10,128 bases of DNA from Bdellovibrionales bacterium (lineage in GTDB: Bacteria; Bdellovibrionota; UBA2361; JAGRAS01): contig JAGRAS010000036.1 in the NCBI GenBank assembly GCA_020434465.1, positions 1 through 10,128 on the forward strand, given 5' to 3'. Each line of letters begins with the position of its first letter. Position 1 is the stretch's first letter. Both the position numbers and the translations under genes were made by a program. Under the pieces are notes generated by a model that made no database searches, was not told the origin of the DNA, and saw nothing but the letters and a program-made list of their open reading frames with translations. Shown here piece after piece: positions 2,889 to 10,020 of this stretch.

Positions 2889-3449
2889 TTATGTTTCTAA
2901 AAATTCGCATAATGCATGAATAATGCAAATATGCGCTTCTTGTATTCTGTCAGTTTCATCGGAAGGTACAATAATTGAAATATCAGCAATGCTTTTTGCC
3001 TTACCTCCTCCTTTACCAGTTAACAGAATAGTTGTCGTTCCTTTTGCCTTTGCATTTTCAATAGCTTGGATAATATTCTTCGAATTTCCTGACGTTGAAA
3101 TAGCGATCAAACAATCATTAGCATTACAAAAAGTCTTTGCTTGGCGGCCATAAACAGTTTGAAAGTCATAATCATTTGCCCAACAGGTCAGTGTTCCGGG
3201 ATCCATGAAATGCATTGCCTTTATTCCTTCACGATCTCTTTTATATCTAGCCACTAATTCTTCTGTAAAGTGCATCGCATCGCAGGCTGAGCCTCCATTA
3301 CCACAAGCATAGATAGTGCCTCCATTAACAACAGTTTTCTTTAAGCTATCTGCTGCTTTATCAAAATTTTCAATAAAGCTATCGTCTGCTGCTAATTCGG
3401 TCTTAATCCTTGCTGACTCAATTAAAAAGGACTTAATTATTTCTTTCAT
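2889..3449 (-). CDS. gmhA: Phosphoheptose (sedoheptulose-7-phosphate) isomerase GmhA
   Basis: Cytoplasmic SIS-domain enzyme of 186 aa that converts sedoheptulose 7-phosphate to D-glycero-D-manno-heptose 7-phosphate, the first step toward ADP-heptose for the LPS inner core. The hallmark CGNGGSACDAMHFTEEL lies at 49-65, the phosphate-binding STSGNS at 118-123, and DRIQEAHICIIH at 167-178. Residues equivalent to the E. coli metal/catalytic set are all present: His-60, Glu-64, Gln-170, His-178. This distinguishes it from the related DiaA, which lacks the full set. Length is normal. The ATG at 3449 has AAGGG nine bases upstream on the minus strand. It stands alone, with no gmhB, hldE or heptosyltransferase genes beside it. 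It faces the acyl-CoA dehydrogenase homologue and diverges from sppA. Confidence 0.95.
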   Translation of the reverse strand: MKEIIKSFLIESARIKTELAADDSFIENFDKAADSLKKTVVNGGTIYACGNGGSACDAMHFTEELVARYKRDREGIKAMHFMDPGTLTCWANDYDFQTVYGRQAKTFCNANDCLIAISTSGNSKNIIQAIENAKAKGTTTILLTGKGGGKAKSIADISIIVPSDETDRIQEAHICIIHALCEFLET

Positions 3450-3526
3450 CTAAATTTTCCCTTGCGCTACCGAACTTTAGCAAGTTTTTAGCATAAAAGA
3501 AAAGAGATTTCCAAAGCTCTTTGCTA

Positions 3527-3554
3527 TTGCACCATCCCTGCTATTTAGTATTAT
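3527..3554 (+). promoter_or_regulatory. Candidate promoter for sppA
   Basis: TATTAT (3549-3554, 5 of 6 to consensus) is preceded at 16 bases by TTGCAC (3527-3532, 3 of 6). Transcription would begin near 3561, about 23 bases before the sppA ATG. The gmhA-sppA gap also holds a 6-bp inverted repeat, AAAGAG/CTCTTT (3501-3522). Supported by position and the -10 only. Confidence 0.3.
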
Positions 3555-3583
3555 TTGTTAAAATCTGGCTTAAGGAAAATTAT

Positions 3584-4483
3584 ATGCGAGAGTACTTTAT
3601 TTGGTTAGCAAAAATTATAACTTCTGTAGTTGTTTTTTTTATTTTTCTTGGAATGCTTGGTGGCTTTTTAGCTTCAACTGCAAAAATCAGTAAAGAATCA
3701 ATACCAACGAATAAAAAGACTGTGGCAGTAATTAATTTGGAGTCAATTATACTAGACTCAGAAGACATAATAAAAGAACTTTATACCCAAGTAGATAATG
3801 ATCAAATAACTGCGATTGTTTTAAGAATTAACTCTCCAGGTGGAGCCGTAGGCCCTTCACAAGATATTTATACTGCTGTGACAAACTTGAAAAAAATTAA
3901 ACCAGTTGTTGTTTCTATGGGAGCAGTTGCAGCATCAGGAGGATTGTATGCTGCACTTGGTGCAAGCAAAATTTTTGCACAGCCTGGGACAATGACTGGA
4001 TCTATTGGAGTTGTACTTCAAGTGCCAAATGTCCAAGAAATCACAGACAAAGTGGGTTTTAAAATGACCACAATAAAAGCTGGGGCTTTAAAAGATGTGG
4101 GAAATATGTACAGAGAAATGTCGCCAGAAGAAAAAGATTTTTTAACAGGACTTGCAGATGAAACCCATGCTGAATTTATCAATGCAGTGGTTGAAGGTAG
4201 AGGCCTGCAAATTTCAGCTGTTAATAAATTTGCAGATGGTAGAGTGATTCTAGGATCACAAGCAAAAGCTCTCGGTTTAATTGATGAAATCGGTGGAGTA
4301 TATGAAGCAGCAGCTTCTGCACTACAATTAGCTAATAAACCATTAGAAAAAGATGAAATACCTAACCTCTATTATCCAGATGATAAATTTAAAGAGTTTA
4401 GGAAATTGTTTGAAGCCTCTAGCTTCTTAAAAAGTTGGTTTGGAATTACCGAAACCTCTCGTTTAATGTATTTAATGCAATAG
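3584..4483 (+). CDS. sppA: Signal peptide peptidase SppA, S49 family, membrane anchored
   Basis: Serine peptidase of 299 aa that digests leftover signal peptides in the membrane. One N-terminal transmembrane segment (about residues 8-30) anchors a single S49 domain on the outer face of the inner membrane, as in the short 36-kDa-type SppA of Bacillus rather than the tandem 67-kDa E. coli form. The nucleophile is Ser-118 (VAASGGLY) and the general base Lys-170 (AGALKDVG). Their spacing of 52 residues equals that of the B. subtilis Ser-147/Lys-199 dyad. INSPGGAV (82-89) and FADGRVILGSQAKALGLIDE (216-235) are further family blocks. The start at 3584 has AGGAA about seven bases upstream and opens with MREYF before the TM segment. 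A longer in-frame start at 3521 adds 21 residues without a ribosome site and overlaps the promoter candidate. Monocistronic by context. Confidence 0.93.
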   Translation: MREYFIWLAKIITSVVVFFIFLGMLGGFLASTAKISKESIPTNKKTVAVINLESIILDSEDIIKELYTQVDNDQITAIVLRINSPGGAVGPSQDIYTAVTNLKKIKPVVVSMGAVAASGGLYAALGASKIFAQPGTMTGSIGVVLQVPNVQEITDKVGFKMTTIKAGALKDVGNMYREMSPEEKDFLTGLADETHAEFINAVVEGRGLQISAVNKFADGRVILGSQAKALGLIDEIGGVYEAAASALQLANKPLEKDEIPNLYYPDDKFKEFRKLFEASSFLKSWFGITETSRLMYLMQ

Positions 4484-4708: not shown

Positions 4709-5332
4709 ATGCTAAATGAGTTTATAGACTTATTAAATACTAACTTCATGCCACATGGGCACTGTTACTTATGGAGCCCTTTTATTTTGTGGGGGCATGC
4801 AGTATCAGACGTAATAATTGCAATATCTTACTTTTCGATTCCAATTGTTCTTATTTATTTCATACAACAACGGGATGATATCGTCTTCTCACGTGTCTTT
4901 ATTTTATTTGCAGTCTTTATTTTAGCTTGTGGAGTTGGACATTTATTAGATGTTTGGAACATTTGGCATGGTGACTATACTCTTTCTTCAGTTGTAAGAA
5001 TTATTACTGCACTTGCTTCATTGGCTACAGCAAGCGTTCTTTGGCCTTTACTGCCAAAAGCATTGCAAATACCCAGCACTAAAACTCTTGAAAAACAAAT
5101 TCGAGCAAAAAGAGAGGCCCTTAAGCAATTGCAGAATATAAAAAGTGAGCTTGAGGATCGGGTAAAAGATCGAACTAGAGAGTTAGAGGAATTCAATAAC
5201 ATAGCTACCGGACGTGAACTTGAAATGATAAAGCTTAAACAAAGAATCAATGAATTATGTGATAAATTAAATCTTCCTCATGAATTTGATTTAAGTTTCT
5301 TAAATGAGGTCGGAATAAATTATGAAGACTAA
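4709..5332 (+). CDS. Ethylene-receptor-type three-TM sensor protein without kinase domain
   Basis: Membrane sensor of 207 aa. Residues 14-22 (MPHGHCYLW) are followed by three hydrophobic segments (about 25-52, 61-83, 92-116) that match the copper-binding ethylene-binding domain of plant ETR1 and Synechocystis Etr1. Residues needed for ethylene binding in ETR1 (Asp25, Tyr32, Ile35, Pro36, Ile62, Cys65, His69) correspond to Asp34, Tyr41, Ile44, Pro45, Ile71, Cys74 and His78, all at a constant offset of nine. Cys74 and His78 (ACGVGH) would hold Cu(I). A coiled coil (about 125-165) follows. The protein then ends in a GRELEMIKLK (168-177) tail in place of HisKA/HATPase. The next gene, a PAS histidine kinase, overlaps by 11 bases and probably supplies the kinase; that is inference. 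No clear Shine-Dalgarno precedes the ATG. Binding of ethylene itself is not proven; bacterial homologues may sense other small molecules or copper. Confidence 0.85.
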   Translation: MLNEFIDLLNTNFMPHGHCYLWSPFILWGHAVSDVIIAISYFSIPIVLIYFIQQRDDIVFSRVFILFAVFILACGVGHLLDVWNIWHGDYTLSSVVRIITALASLATASVLWPLLPKALQIPSTKTLEKQIRAKREALKQLQNIKSELEDRVKDRTRELEEFNNIATGRELEMIKLKQRINELCDKLNLPHEFDLSFLNEVGINYED

Positions 5333-6818
5333 GGAAATTCCGAATATTATCTCTCCATCTGCAAAAAGCTGCAAAATTAACTTTACTGTAATTTACCTGG
5401 GAATATTTGTTTGCTTAGCAGTATGGCAATTATCGCATGTTTTTAAATTAGAATTTATCTATAACTCTAAAAACATATTTCCTTTATCGAACATTTTATG
5501 TCCGCTAATCTTATTAGTTACCTTTTTATTAGAAAGACTAGTCTCTCTTAAAGCAAATATTACAAATTATAATTCGAAATTTTTAAAAACTAGTAAGATA
5601 CTTGAAGAAACATCAAATGAAATTAATAATATAAACACAAAGCTTAAAAATCGTGAGTTGGAACTTGTTCAACAAAGAAAAGCAGCTTTAAACATTGCAG
5701 CTGATGCAAAAAAAGCCCTCGAACAAGCTGAACAAGCAAATATAACTGCAAATGAACAAAGAAAAGCTTTTCAAGCTGTTGTTAATTCATCACCCAACGG
5801 TCTTTTAGGAGTGAGCCGTGATGGTAAAATTGAACTTGCTAATAAAACTTTAGAAAAAATGTTTGGCTACACTAACGAAGAATTAATTGGACAATCAGTT
5901 GAAATTTTGATTCCAATGGAATTCCATCATAAACATAAAGGATTTGTTGATGGGTTTTTTCAATCACCTGATGCTAGACCAATGGGAGAAGGACGTGATT
6001 TGTTAGGCCAGAGAAAGGATCAAACTACCTTCCCGGTAGAGATTGGTTTACAACCATTGGCTGGAAAAAACTCTTTATCTGTTATTGCCGCCATTACTGA
6101 TATAACCCAAAGAAAAAAATACGAAGAAGATCTTAAACATTCTAATGAAGAGCTTGAGCGATTTGCTTATGTTGCCTCTCACGACTTGCAGGAACCATTA
6201 AGAATGGTTGGTAGTTTTGCCTCAATTCTTCAAGAAGAATATAGTGGTAAATTTGACGAAAACGGACAAAAGTATCTAGATTTCATGATCGACGGTGCTA
6301 AGCGTATGCAAACTCTTGTTCAAGACTTACTTGCCTATTCACGTACAAGCAGCCGAGAAATTAATCAGGGGAAAATAGATGGCAATAAGCTTCTAGAGCA
6401 AGTCTTAAAAAATCTCTCAGTAATAATTCAAGAATCCAACGCCAAAATTAGCCATGATCCCTTACCCAACTTTATTGGCGACGAGAGTTTACTATTCTTA
6501 GTTTTTCAAAATTTAATTTCTAATGCTATCAAGTATATGTCACCTGATAAGACTCCGGAAATACATATAAATGCAGTTAACAATTATAATAAATGCACTA
6601 TTTCTATTAAAGACAATGGAATTGGAATTCCAAAAGAAGCCTATAATCGAATTTTTATTATCTTTCAACGGCTTCACGGTAGACAAGAATACTCAGGTAC
6701 AGGAATTGGACTGGCTATATGTAAAAAAATCATTGAGAGGCATGGTGAGAAAATTTGGTTAGAGTCTGAGGAAGGAAGAGGAACAACTTTTTATTTTACA
6801 CTTAAAACAATCCAGTAG
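5322..6818 (+). CDS. Two-TM PAS sensor histidine kinase
   Basis: Inner-membrane histidine kinase, 498 aa. Two TM helices (about 20-41 and 53-71) are separated by a very short external loop, so there is no real periplasmic sensor domain. A long coiled coil (about 72-148) leads to a PAS domain (about 149-262) and then HisKA with the phospho-acceptor His-287 in ASHDLQEPLR. In the HATPase domain the N-box is FQNLISNAIKY (Asn-401), G1 is DNGIGI (431-436) and G2 is GTGIGLAI (459-466). All catalytic boxes are intact. The PAS has His-205 and Arg-225, spaced as the haem His200/Arg220 of FixL, though many non-haem PAS domains share them. The start overlaps the preceding sensor gene by 11 bases and has CGGAA upstream at good spacing, so it is a separate gene and not a frameshifted continuation. 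The HDLQEPLR subtype commonly pairs with Rcp1-type receivers, as encoded next. Confidence 0.94.
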   Translation: MKTKEIPNIISPSAKSCKINFTVIYLGIFVCLAVWQLSHVFKLEFIYNSKNIFPLSNILCPLILLVTFLLERLVSLKANITNYNSKFLKTSKILEETSNEINNINTKLKNRELELVQQRKAALNIAADAKKALEQAEQANITANEQRKAFQAVVNSSPNGLLGVSRDGKIELANKTLEKMFGYTNEELIGQSVEILIPMEFHHKHKGFVDGFFQSPDARPMGEGRDLLGQRKDQTTFPVEIGLQPLAGKNSLSVIAAITDITQRKKYEEDLKHSNEELERFAYVASHDLQEPLRMVGSFASILQEEYSGKFDENGQKYLDFMIDGAKRMQTLVQDLLAYSRTSSREINQGKIDGNKLLEQVLKNLSVIIQESNAKISHDPLPNFIGDESLLFLVFQNLISNAIKYMSPDKTPEIHINAVNNYNKCTISIKDNGIGIPKEAYNRIFIIFQRLHGRQEYSGTGIGLAICKKIIERHGEKIWLESEEGRGTTFYFTLKTIQ

Positions 6819-6826
6819 GAGGAAAA

Positions 6827-7273
6827 ATGCAAGCTGAACCAATTAAGATTTTACTAGTCGAAGATAATCCAGGTGATGTCGAATTAGTAAAAAGAAGCTT
6901 ACGAAATGGTAAACTTACTAATGTACTATACCAAGTTAAGGATGGAGTTGAAGCAATGAAGTTTTTACGCAACTCTAATAGCGAAGAGAAAAATCCTTGC
7001 CCCGATTTAGTTCTGTTAGATATTAATTTACCAAACAAAAATGGATTAGAAGTATTAGAAGAGATTAAAGAAGATCCTATTTTAAAAACTATTCCTGTAA
7101 TAATGTTAACAACATCTAGTGCTGATTCTGACATTCTACTTAGTTACAAACACCATGTTAATGCTTTTGTTACCAAACCAGTAGACGCACAGGAATTTGT
7201 TGAAACAGTTAAAACGATAGAAGAGTTTTGGCTTACATTAGTTAAATTACCAAGCAAAATAAAAGATGTATAA
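6827..7273 (+). CDS. Rcp1-type single-domain response regulator
   Basis: Cytoplasmic receiver of 148 aa with no output domain. The acidic pair Glu-12/Asp-13 (VEDNPGD), phospho-acceptor Asp-65 (LLDINLP), Thr-95 (MLTTSS) and Lys-117 followed by Pro (TKPVD) are all present. The long insertion before the Asp and the C-terminal IEEFWLTLVKLP (131-142) are hallmarks of the Rcp1 group, known as partners of Cph1 phytochrome and related HDLQEPLR kinases. An excellent ribosome site, AGGAGG, overlaps the stop of the upstream kinase, and the gap is 8 bases, so it is co-transcribed with and probably phosphorylated by that kinase. The downstream target is unknown; Rcp1 proteins act by protein-protein contacts or phosphotransfer. 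Confidence 0.94.
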   Translation: MQAEPIKILLVEDNPGDVELVKRSLRNGKLTNVLYQVKDGVEAMKFLRNSNSEEKNPCPDLVLLDINLPNKNGLEVLEEIKEDPILKTIPVIMLTTSSADSDILLSYKHHVNAFVTKPVDAQEFVETVKTIEEFWLTLVKLPSKIKDV

Positions 7274-7362: not shown

Positions 7363-8877
7363 ATGGATCAAATTAGGACTTTAGTAATTGAAGATTCACC
7401 AGGTGATTTTGCTCTCACGCAGAATTGCCTTGCTAAAGTTTGTGATAGTTCCGATGGGGAATTTATAGGTCGTAAAATTTTGGTCGACTGGGCTCAGACC
7501 ATTAAAGAAGCAAAAGAAAAATCACAACAAAACGACTTTAAGCTCGTACTATTAGATTTAAACCTACCTGATGCATCTGGGATTGACTCAATTGATAAAG
7601 TAATTTCTATCTTTCCAGACTGCCCAATTGTTATTCTTAGCGGCTTATCTGATGCTAAGCTTTCAATAGAAGTTGTTAGAGCTGGAGCACAAGATTATTT
7701 AATAAAAAACGAACTGAATCCGTTAAACGTTGGTAGATCAATACGCTATGCAATCGAAAGATTTGAATTAGTTCGTGAACTAAAACAAAAAAATGCAGAT
7801 CTTGAGGCTTTTACAGCAGTTGCAACTCATGACCTTAAATCTCCATTATACAAAATTAGTGAAGCAAGTGAATTACTTTTAGAAGGCAATATCCATGACG
7901 AAGAACAAAAAAACATGTTTCTTGAGATGATTCGTCGGGGCGCCAGAAGGCTTGGCCAATTGATTGATGATCTGCTAATGCTTTCTCGAATTGGACATGA
8001 GGCAGTTGAATTTTCTAATGTAGATCTTAATCAACTATTTGACGATGTAGTAGAATCTCTTGATACTTTAATATTAAAAGAGAGTGCAAAAGTTACTAGA
8101 GATGACTTGCCCACCCTATTTGGCTGCCGCTCTGGACTAACAATAATTTTTCAAAATTTAATCAGTAATAGCTTAAAATACAGATCTGAAAGAGACCCTT
8201 TAATTAAAGTAAGTAGCCAGCAAGAAAATAAGGTCTGGAAAATTATTTTTTCTGATAATGGAATGGGAATCGACCAGCAGGAAATTAACAATATTTTTCA
8301 ACCTTTCGTTCGTGGTAGTGGTAGCTACGGAACAGAAGGATCTGGGATCGGTCTTGCCACTTGCAGCCGCCTAGCAGAACTGCATTACGGAAATATCACT
8401 GCCGAATCGATTATTGGTGAGGGAACAAATATAATTCTTAGCCTACCTAGTCAAAAAATACTTAATGTTGGGAAAAACAGAAATTTAACAAAAATCTCTA
8501 CAATTTCTACTAATTCGCATGCAAAAATATTACTTGTTGATGATGATCAGTTACAAACTAAAATTATCAGTAATGTACTAAAAAAAGTTGGTTTCGATGT
8601 AGTTGCATTTACTGAAGCTAAGGAAGCATTAGAGGCAATAAAGCAACATGATTTTGACTGCATTATTTCAGATTTGATAATGCCCGGAGTATCAGGCGAA
8701 GAACTATTGGTTCAAATCAAATCAGAGTCGGATTTACCAGTAATTATTTACACTGGCATGGCTCAAAGCGCTAAAGATAGAGTGCTTTCGCTTGGAGCTG
8801 CTGACTGCGTACAAAAGGGAGATGCGGCAAAAAAACTGCTAGAATCAATATTTTTACAGCTAAATATTTCGCCGTAA
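7363..8877 (+). CDS. Hybrid histidine kinase, REC-HisKA-HATPase-REC
   Basis: Soluble hybrid kinase of 504 aa, no TM segment. REC1 (about 4-125): Glu-10/Asp-11, Asp-65 (LLDLNLPDASG), Lys-115. HisKA: His-156 in VATHDLKSPL. HATPase: Asn-269 in FQNLISNSLKY, G1 SDNGMGI (297-303), G2 GSGIGLA (326-332). A Ser/Thr-rich linker (about 366-386) leads to REC2 (387-504): acidic cluster DDD 393-395, Asp-437 (IISDLIMPG), Thr-464, Lys-485. The N-terminal receiver takes the place of a sensor, so the kinase is probably an intermediate controlled by phosphorylation of REC1, perhaps from the upstream PAS kinase. REC2 may be the output, or a phosphate sink. GGGGA six bases upstream supports the start. No HPt domain is encoded in the window to complete a classic four-step relay. 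Confidence 0.94.
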   Translation: MDQIRTLVIEDSPGDFALTQNCLAKVCDSSDGEFIGRKILVDWAQTIKEAKEKSQQNDFKLVLLDLNLPDASGIDSIDKVISIFPDCPIVILSGLSDAKLSIEVVRAGAQDYLIKNELNPLNVGRSIRYAIERFELVRELKQKNADLEAFTAVATHDLKSPLYKISEASELLLEGNIHDEEQKNMFLEMIRRGARRLGQLIDDLLMLSRIGHEAVEFSNVDLNQLFDDVVESLDTLILKESAKVTRDDLPTLFGCRSGLTIIFQNLISNSLKYRSERDPLIKVSSQQENKVWKIIFSDNGMGIDQQEINNIFQPFVRGSGSYGTEGSGIGLATCSRLAELHYGNITAESIIGEGTNIILSLPSQKILNVGKNRNLTKISTISTNSHAKILLVDDDQLQTKIISNVLKKVGFDVVAFTEAKEALEAIKQHDFDCIISDLIMPGVSGEELLVQIKSESDLPVIIYTGMAQSAKDRVLSLGAADCVQKGDAAKKLLESIFLQLNISP

Positions 8878-8888
8878 TATCTAAAGTT

Positions 8889-8929
8889 GGTTTTTTCCAG
8901 GCTTTAGACAAGGTTTTTTCCAGGCTTTA
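8889..8929 (+). repeat. Perfect 18-bp tandem direct repeat before a receiver gene
   Basis: GGTTTTTTCCAGGCTTTA occurs exactly at 8889-8906 and 8912-8929, a 23-bp period. The second copy ends three bases before the ATG at 8933, so its AGG (8922-8924) may act as a weak ribosome site at 8 bases spacing. The shorter related string GGTTTCCAGG occurs at 7324-7333, before the hybrid kinase gene. Role unknown: a tandem regulator site, or a recent local duplication that doubled a translation signal. Confidence 0.6.
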
Positions 8930-8932
8930 TAG

Positions 8933-9484
8933 ATGACGACTAAAAATAAAATAAATAAAGATTGGCTCCAAAGCTCAACTATAAATGCTGGAGTTTCGAC
9001 GAATTCATTTAGTAGTAAATTTTCAATGGAGAAGAACCCTATGGAAGTAGCACATAACACAATGCAGGATGATTGGGGCCAAATGCCTGAGATCTTCCCG
9101 CTAGCAAAACGAACTCCGGCAAGTCATACAATTTTACTTGTTGATGACGACCCAGATCATTTAATAATTTATTCAACATTACTAGAAAATTCGGGCTTTA
9201 AAGTTAAAACGGCTAACAACACCAAAATGGCAAAAGCTTTGTTGCGAACTAAGAAATTTCAAATGGTAATTTCTGATGTTATGATGCCAGGTGAAAAAGG
9301 CGATGAATTTGTTCATTGGCTAAAAAGAAATCCAAAATTTAGTCAGATTCCAACAATTGTTTTAACTGCAACTAGGAACGATGTTTCAGACCTAGTATTA
9401 AAAAAATATGGTCCTGATATGTTTTGCATGAAGTCTGAGGCAATACGTATGTTACCTATGCAAGTTGATTATTTGCTTTTCTAA
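8933..9484 (+). CDS. Single-domain response regulator with polar N-terminal extension
   Basis: Receiver protein, 183 aa from the first ATG. Residues 1-63 are polar, low-complexity and probably disordered. The REC domain runs from about 65 to the end: acidic cluster DDD 71-73, phospho-acceptor Asp-115 (VISDVMMPG), Thr-145 (IVLTAT), Lys-167. No output domain follows. Lys-167 is followed by Ser, not the usual Pro. Start is uncertain: the ATG at 8933 has only AGG inside the 18-bp repeat, while the ATG at 9041 (residue 37) has GGAGAAG six bases upstream and would give a 147-aa protein still holding the complete receiver. The REC resembles the C-terminal receiver of the preceding hybrid kinase and may be its phosphotransfer partner or competitor; that is inference. 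Confidence 0.88.
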   Translation: MTTKNKINKDWLQSSTINAGVSTNSFSSKFSMEKNPMEVAHNTMQDDWGQMPEIFPLAKRTPASHTILLVDDDPDHLIIYSTLLENSGFKVKTANNTKMAKALLRTKKFQMVISDVMMPGEKGDEFVHWLKRNPKFSQIPTIVLTATRNDVSDLVLKKYGPDMFCMKSEAIRMLPMQVDYLLF

Positions 9485-9532
9485 AGCTCATTTGCTGTAC
9501 TTTACTGACTTTCACAGAAGCTTTATAATTTT
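9482..9532 (+). terminator. Weak hairpin after the extended receiver gene
   Basis: TAAAGCT (9482-9488) pairs with AGCTTTA (9519-9525) across a long loop that can form a small inner CTGT/ACAG stem. TAATTTTC follows. It is low in GC and overlaps the -10 of the next promoter candidate, so terminator function is doubtful. Confidence 0.15.
9501..9529 (+). promoter_or_regulatory. Promoter for the last receiver gene
   Basis: TTTACT (9501-9506, 4 of 6) is followed after exactly 17 bases by a perfect TATAAT (9524-9529). The start point would be near 9536, leaving a leader of about 83 bases. This is the best-matching promoter in the window and indicates that the final receiver has its own transcript. 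The leader contains an all-A/T inverted repeat, TTAATTTT/AAAATTAA (9546-9569), and a T8 run (9576-9583), neither clearly functional. Confidence 0.5.
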
Positions 9533-9618
9533 CTTGGTTATTTTTTTAATTTTGTTACATTAAAATTAACAAAGGTTTTTTTTGAGGTGTTAAAGGTGAA
9601 TTAAGCTATAAGTGATTT

Positions 9619-10020
9619 ATGCAGCAAGAAATAAAAAATTCATGTTTTGGCAAACAAATCCTAGTTGCTGAAGATTGCCCGGATGCAAGATTGCTTTTAA
9701 AATATACACTTAAAGAAATTGGAGTTGAAGTATCCTTTGTGAATAATGGCAAAGACTGTGTAAAAGAGGCTTTGCGTGCTTTAAATGACAACTCGCCTTA
9801 CCGCCTTATACTTATGGACATTCAAATGCCGATTCTTGATGGCTATGAAGCAACTAAACAACTTCGTAGCAAGGGGTACAAATATCCAATAGTAATTTTG
9901 AGCACTAGATCTACCAGCATAGATCAGGAAGCAACTTTAGATGTTGGCTGTAACTGCCACCTAAGCAAACAGTCTGGAAAAGAAGTATTACTAGAAACTG
10001 TTGCCGGCTATTTGCAATAA
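9619..10020 (+). CDS. Orphan receiver of hybrid-kinase (BarA-like) type
   Basis: Stand-alone receiver domain, 133 aa. It has Glu-18/Asp-19 (VAEDCPDA), phospho-acceptor Asp-67 in LMDIQMPILDGYEATKQLR, Ser-95 at the Thr/Ser switch site and Lys-117. The MDIQMP-x-x-DGYEAT-x-x-LR block and the C-x-CHLSK pattern are those of receivers normally fused to the C-terminus of hybrid kinases, so it was probably derived from, or works with, such a kinase. The usual TANA after the switch residue is replaced by TRST, and Lys-117 is followed by Gln, not Pro. It has its own promoter candidate. The ribosome site is weak (AGTGA three bases before the ATG); a better AGGTGA at 9593-9598 is too far away, and a TGA just before the ATG blocks an in-frame extension. 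Confidence 0.92.
   Translation: MQQEIKNSCFGKQILVAEDCPDARLLLKYTLKEIGVEVSFVNNGKDCVKEALRALNDNSPYRLILMDIQMPILDGYEATKQLRSKGYKYPIVILSTRSTSIDQEATLDVGCNCHLSKQSGKEVLLETVAGYLQ

Follow-up and report, generated by a model that had tools for sequence, protein, structure and literature searches.

Control of a kinase across two polypeptide chains is familiar from the RetS/GacS pair, in which RetS is itself a kinase-type protein, and from split histidine kinases, which divide the catalytic machinery. The accessible sections of the literature name RetS/GacS (PMC6981129) and describe function across two chains in split histidine kinases (PMC3591291). A precedent for an ethylene receptor governing a separate kinase by contact is found in rice, where OsERS2 binds and inhibits the histidine kinase MHZ1/OsHK1 (PMC6981129, same sections). 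The locus described here differs from the split kinases in dividing the sensor from the kinase, and it also differs from the rice pair, in which OsERS2 has a kinase-type region of its own and works via its GAF domain while MHZ1 has no transmembrane (TM) domain (PMC6981129). The Arabidopsis receptors ETR1 and ERS1 share with our protein the three-TM domain (PF25487) and the seven residues used for binding. However, our chain has no GAF, kinase or receiver domain, carries Arg97 at the position of K91, has its kinase in a separate gene and ends in a conserved tail. Bacterial homologues with the same sensor domain, SynEtr1 (PMC6682694) and AzoEtr1 (PMC11819568), are reported to bind ethylene in the available parts of these papers but are one-chain kinases, AzoEtr1 being an EBD-PAS-HK protein of 525 aa. 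Finally, the helical relay behind the sensor resembles the S-helix, a 40-residue helix with an ERT signature that, in the sections available, is nearly always flanked by two signalling domains within a single chain (PMC1592074). A DRT in our protein resembles this signature by eye, but no Pfam domain follows the helix and the chain ends about 50 residues past the DRT, in a different motif.

The locus lies in a window of 10,128 nucleotides (the whole stretch of DNA analysed) from a Bdellovibrionales bacterium, and its features are collected in Table 1.

Table 1. Features of the split sensor-kinase locus, with positions in the window.
Feature	Position	Strand	Evidence
Kinase-less ethylene-receptor-like sensor, 207 aa	4709..5332	+	PF25487 E=2.9e-37; AlphaFold2 pLDDT 91.4
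Three-TM ethylene-binding-type domain, residues 24-120	4778..5068	+	Profile match, alignment, AlphaFold2, hydropathy
Long helix, first part, residues 124-159, with S-helix-like VKDRTREL	5078..5185	+	AlphaFold2 helix; ERT likeness by eye
Conserved C-terminal tail, residues 160-196, EEFNNIATGRELEMIKLKQRINELCDKLNLPHEFDLS	5186..5296	+	Two tail models, 63.7 and 43.6 bits
End of sensor gene overlapping start of kinase gene, 11 nt, different frames	5322..5332	+	Sequence
Presumed partner kinase of 498 aa (PAS histidine kinase; two hydrophobic segments)	5322..6818	+	PAS, HisKA, HATPase_c (Pfam); hydropathy
ALN-like motif QQRKAALNIAADAKKA, kinase residues 117-132	5670..5717	+	7.2 bits, weak
Single-domain response regulator, possible phosphate acceptor	6827..7273	+	Response_reg E=7.9e-22; adjacency only

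The sensor gene starts with ATG and encodes a stand-alone ethylene-receptor-type sensor without a kinase of its own. The Pfam match to ETR1_N (PF25487) covers residues 26-121 and scores 127.3 bits against a curated cut-off of 27, so it is not due to chance. AlphaFold2, run on a 54-row alignment, predicts that residues 24-54, 61-87 and 90-120 form TM helices, in agreement with three hydropathy peaks; a 63-residue helix (124-186) follows, and then an ordered non-helical end with a short helix at 197-201 near the C-terminus. Neither Pfam nor our own HATPase_c model found HisKA or HATPase_c in the 207 residues. A search of solved structures returned no relatives, either by sequence (best E 0.15) or by fold at E<=0.001. 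In the neighbouring kinase, residues 19-37 and 52-70 stand out as hydropathy peaks ahead of the PAS, HisKA and HATPase_c domains. A sequence-only reading of this DNA had put forward a three-TM domain on a chain without kinase, followed by an overlapping kinase gene with two TM helices of its own; these observations are confirmed, and the profile search that it called for was significant, while its interpretation is partly supported, as discussed below.

The same reading had listed seven residues needed for ethylene binding, and they can be read directly in the sensor as D34, Y41, I44, P45, I71, C74 and H78, at a constant offset of +9. The corresponding ETR1 positions, which we take from that reading to be D25, Y32, I35, P36, I62, C65 and H69, are kept almost throughout the 54-row alignment: the Tyr, both Ile, the Cys and the His in all 54 rows, the Pro in 51 and the Asp in 48. 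The complete set is therefore usual among relatives and nothing special to this sensor, and its retention is not remarkable. In the 22 rows that carry the tail, Asp is found in 20, Pro in 19 and the other five in all. The rule of seven residues, with ETR1 D25, C65 and H69, appears in the accessible part of PMC11819568, which also ties K91 to D25 and to receptor output. The position of K91 is taken here by Arg97 (4997-4999). Arg is found there in 13 and Lys in nine of the 22 tailed rows, and Lys in 27, Arg in four and Asp in one of the 32 others. Arg in place of Lys may point to a change in output coupling.

Cu(I) and the ligand are both putative, and a conserved three-TM site is no proof that ethylene is the natural ligand. 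The same split pair could instead sense copper, the redox or membrane state or another small molecule, which we consider unlikely but deserving of weight. It would fit the roles of C65 as copper ligand and of H69, positioned for copper coordination in ETR1 (PMC11819568, in part), the absence of any pointer to ethylene metabolism among the ten window proteins scanned with Pfam, and the Thr found at the Pro36 position in three Colwellia split receptors (L032-L034), i.e., in half of the six tailed ORFs for which there is DNA context. Against it stand the presence of all seven binding residues in the sensor and the reported ethylene binding of SynEtr1 and AzoEtr1 (PMC6682694, PMC11819568, sections available).

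With its own hydrophobic segments, the kinase could also have an input of its own. Its homologues (the best 120 of 7996, including the window's own) are PAS kinases covering 65-78 percent of the query, and no family of partner kinases was apparent among them. The other 119 listed include six one-chain proteins with PF25487, PAS and kinase (P0134, P0136, P0138, P0145, P0166 and P0205), so that the separate kinase resembles kinases that elsewhere bear this sensor. More signalling genes are located downstream, at 7363-10020, namely a REC-HisKA-HATPase-REC protein and two REC proteins by Pfam.

Relatives of the sensor were sought among 5.8 billion proteins, at lengths of 0.55-1.75 of the query, and 178 were found, the best 120 of which (including the window's own) were listed. 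Among the other 119 listed, 19, some of them near-copies, carry the tail at 34 bits or more with a model made only from the tails of other sensors; one further relative, P0017, scores 17.8 bits. In one of the 19 (P0019) a PAS domain sits between the ethylene-type domain and the tail. Many homologues, of 182-222 aa, share the tail and a stop close behind it. The overlap of the two ORFs in different frames might suggest a frameshift, an assembly fault or a decaying gene, an explanation that we take as refuted, given how often the tail and the stop behind it recur among homologues; moreover, a fusion would put two more hydrophobic segments after the tail.

The 40 loci from the genome collection, pooled with those of later searches, gave 90 distinct ETR1_N ORFs. 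Six of them have the tail (the window, a Bdellovibrionales MAG, three Colwellia and one Pseudocolwellia; 182-207 aa), four are short and tail-less (121-140 aa) and one is stopped by the contig end at 217 aa. The remaining 79 have at least 321 aa and contain neither the tail nor the ALN motif described below, 23 of them being cut by the end of the locus. The gene after the sensor coded for a HATPase_c protein in all six tailed ORFs with DNA context (window, L001 and L031-L034), at gaps of -11, 10, 26, 60, 27 and 59 nt. These calls come from our own model, built from eight kinases; for the window, L001 and L031 they are backed by Pfam. The split is thus not peculiar to this locus. The available parts of the papers are in line with plant and cyanobacterial receptors having this domain and the kinase in one chain, but stand-alone forms recur in bacteria.

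They are nevertheless a minority, and commonest in the Bdellovibrionota sample, to judge from frame lengths in three phylum samples. PF25487 was found in 32 of 191 genomes in the phylum of G001 (Bdellovibrionota, judging by the name of L001), and seven of the 34 matches there lie in frames 124-220 aa long, the known L001 and L038 among them. In the phylum of G002 the count was 18 of 249 genomes, and one of 19 matches, the known L031, lies in a short frame; in that of G445 it was 15 of 235, with all 16 matches in frames of at least 402 aa. No tail turned up in four genomes that encode one-chain ETR1_N proteins (L005, L006, L028, L030), nor in the genome of L038. The minimal tail-less proteins are encoded at L038 3995-4360, L142 1414-1836, L143 434-805 and L144 1447-1842; a kinase gene follows or overlaps in L038 (by Pfam) and in L142 and L144 (by eye), making these another type of split receptor.

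In a tree of 111 rows (22 tailed), built from few columns, 13 tailed rows including the window group with P0017 (SH-aLRT 98). Other tailed rows lie elsewhere, with up to seven label changes, at least two of them forced by supported branches, so a single ancient split is not borne out. The ethylene-type domain itself is of a known bacterial kind, and the two-chain form with its shared tail is a new variant. Among the open-licence papers listed by our searches, none dealt with a stand-alone ethylene-binding protein with a separate kinase, nor with the tail, which is weak evidence of absence.

The chain had been read as stopping after a coiled coil. It does end in a long helix, but its end is a conserved tail, common to other kinds of sensor, that had been missed. 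The first score in Table 1 is from a tail model that includes the window row, and the second (E=1.7e-12) from a model of 39 non-ETR1_N tails only; these were retrieved with the first model, which holds one of them (L040), so the two are not fully independent. The consensus is approximately F...DREe.MI.LK.e.NeL..eLGrp..yDl. Most of the tail lies inside the predicted helix 124-186, and by alignment and AlphaFold2 the conservation reaches its non-helical end. No Pfam or NCBIfam model matched the region at cut-off, and the coiled-coil matches were below threshold (Pfam ATG16, 18.1 bits vs. 33.7; NCBIfam PRK02793, 17.9 vs. 103).

Genome samples were searched with a 17-row tail alignment (A2), whose founders count among the matches in the phylum of G001 and in the phylum and class of G002. 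In the phylum of G002 it matched 42 of 249 genomes (63 matches in all, the loci of part of them, the best, being examined), and many of these matches may be from Magnetococcales, a taxon bias. Elsewhere it matched four of 191 (phylum of G001), three of 222 (phylum of G445), 14 of 178 (phylum of G446) and five of 166 (class of G002). Adding all 20 C-terminal tails among L047-L079 to the seven already known gave 27 sites, 24 of which have a kinase within two genes. At 22 of them a HATPase_c protein is next or next-but-one by our own model, and Pfam adds two more (L081, with HisKA_2, and L082, cut inside HisKA). The three sites where none was seen are L084, at a contig end, and L040 and L080, whose tailed sensors (2894-4150 and 3032-4180) are possible orphans for distant kinases. 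Later loci (L155-L171) gave 14 tails above 18 bits, seven of them C-terminal, and an adjoining kinase was seen in one (L167) within pieces of 3 kb.

The tail is not specific to ethylene-type sensors; it also ends kinase-less sensors of the PAS, PocR, GAF, binding-protein and Cache-like kinds. Pfam domains before it in a scan of ten sensors include PAS arrays, PocR with a weak CHASE8, GAF with PAS, and SBP_bac_3 with PAS; L040 has a below-threshold dCache_1 (41.5 bits vs. 45). In L086 and L096 a gene for a periplasmic binding protein lies between sensor and kinase. This common tail suggests a reusable way for sensors to address separate kinases.

In longer chains, where the tail is internal, it is followed by a second motif of the type RxAAlsLAEDAexAR (ALN). 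It was found downstream in 11 of the 12 longer chains without a second tail, the exception (L076) being cut off before the position of the motif. The distance is about 21-47 residues, or else ALN lies beyond a PocR domain. Kinases are found among these one-chain proteins (L059, L068, L071), and L066 and L069, with tail, PocR and ALN, end soon after without a kinase domain. PocR lies between tail and ALN in all eight chains scanned (L059, L060, L062, L066, L068, L069, L071, L074), as if inserted into the coupler. The Magnetococcus protein P0242 has tail and ALN before PAS domains and a SpoIIE-type phosphatase (PF07228), an output indicating that the tail-ALN module is not limited to kinases. 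L083 and L087 show an N-terminal region (with a weak CHASE8 match in L083), tail, PocR, ALN and a second tail at the end, and then a kinase gene. In the one-chain P0241 the tail helix is predicted to end at 277 and the ALN helix to start at 302, with a low-confidence linker between them (mean pLDDT 65.9 from eight rows, hence tentative).

In the phylum of G002, our ALN model A4 matched 31 of 249 genomes. The tail is present in 30 of these 31, compared to 42 of 249 overall (Fisher p=7e-28), and in 18 of 19 after leaving out the 12 genomes that gave training rows (p=3.5e-18), p values that are overstated by treating related genomes as independent. With one exception (G201), the 37 ALN matches lie downstream of a tail encoded on the same strand of the same contig. 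At loci outside training, ALN was located 40-55 aa downstream of six of seven internal tails (6.7-16.8 bits), L171 having none.

For the split kinases we used an independent ALN model with 19 training rows, from which ethylene-type systems were left out. Its best site in the window kinase is the one in Table 1, weak and in the expected place. Of 1,200 shuffled N-termini from the six partner kinases, one scored as high. Among other ORFs of at least 250 aa, 34 of the 309 with a reported score exceeded it. These 34 all belong to tail loci, and many are duplicate pieces or gave training rows; the best score outside tail systems was 2.1 bits (L037). From this sequence comparison, an ALN motif in the window kinase is possible to likely. 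The model also finds L032 (5.5 bits) among the other partner kinases and does not recover ALN in L001, L031, L033 and L034. Above 5 bits, it is found in nine of 24 neighbouring kinases (window, L032, L082, L089, L093, L095, L096, L098 and L099), of which L089, L093 and L095 supplied training rows. ALN as an obligatory motif of partner kinases was dropped as a general rule. In six systems (L083, L085, L087, L088, L090 and L094) ALN is in the sensor chain rather than in the kinase.

The tail might also be mainly an element of homo-oligomerisation or stability, the sensor and kinase being co-transcribed yet separate, or the sensor only scaffolding the kinase. The location of most of the tail in a predicted helix, the tailed L040 and L080 without adjacent kinase and the 15 of 24 neighbouring kinases without ALN above 5 bits would all be compatible with this, but the kinases near 24 of 27 tails, the co-occurrence of tail and ALN in a fixed order and the conservation of the non-helical end make it improbable.

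The best reading, and in our judgement a fairly probable one, is that a Cu(I)/olefin-type sensor acts in trans on the adjacent kinase via the hitherto unannotated tail. It draws on the ETR1_N match with its full residue set, the 19 tailed relatives among 119, the kinase beside every tailed ETR1_N ORF with context and near most other tails, the co-occurrence and order of tail and ALN, and the absence of both from all 79 longer ETR1_N ORFs. It is weakened by the weak ALN of the window kinase and the minority of neighbouring kinases with the motif, by L066 and L069, which have no kinase, and by L040 and L080. The three-TM domain would most likely hold Cu(I) at Cys74/His78 and read ethylene or a similar small olefin, and the state of the ligand would alter the long helix that emerges from the third TM helix. 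The tail would then dock on the juxtamembrane region of the neighbouring kinase, possibly packing on its ALN-like helix, and the docked sensor would set kinase activity toward the response regulator. The split pair would thereby rebuild, from two chains, a coupling like the tail-then-ALN arrangement of its one-chain relatives. Tail and ALN being tentatively predicted as separate helices in P0241, such a coupling could be divided between two genes and lose nothing, in keeping with the split form. Signalling in trans to a membrane kinase had already been proposed for this locus, and the pairing with a separate membrane-type kinase is indeed conserved in distant bacteria; the sensor-kinase contact, the direction of regulation and the phosphotransfer partner are what we infer.

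A broader reading, to which we would give slightly less than an even chance, is that one two-part coupler (tail plus ALN helix) links many kinds of sensor to effector enzymes, either within one chain or, when cut between its parts, across two. Ethylene-type, Cache-like, PocR, PAS, GAF and binding-protein sensors would be exchangeable inputs, the receptor described here among them. The finding of ALN in only nine of the 24 neighbouring kinases reduces its weight.

If these readings are true, the locus would provide an ethylene-type receptor naturally made of two chains, so that the binding of the ligand and the output of the kinase are separable for study, and a conserved module that lets sensors act on separate kinases. 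Genes for sensors labelled "hypothetical" or "PAS protein" for want of an output domain would then be given an output. The profiles of tail and ALN make the module directly searchable, and it is this wider tail module that holds the greater interest.
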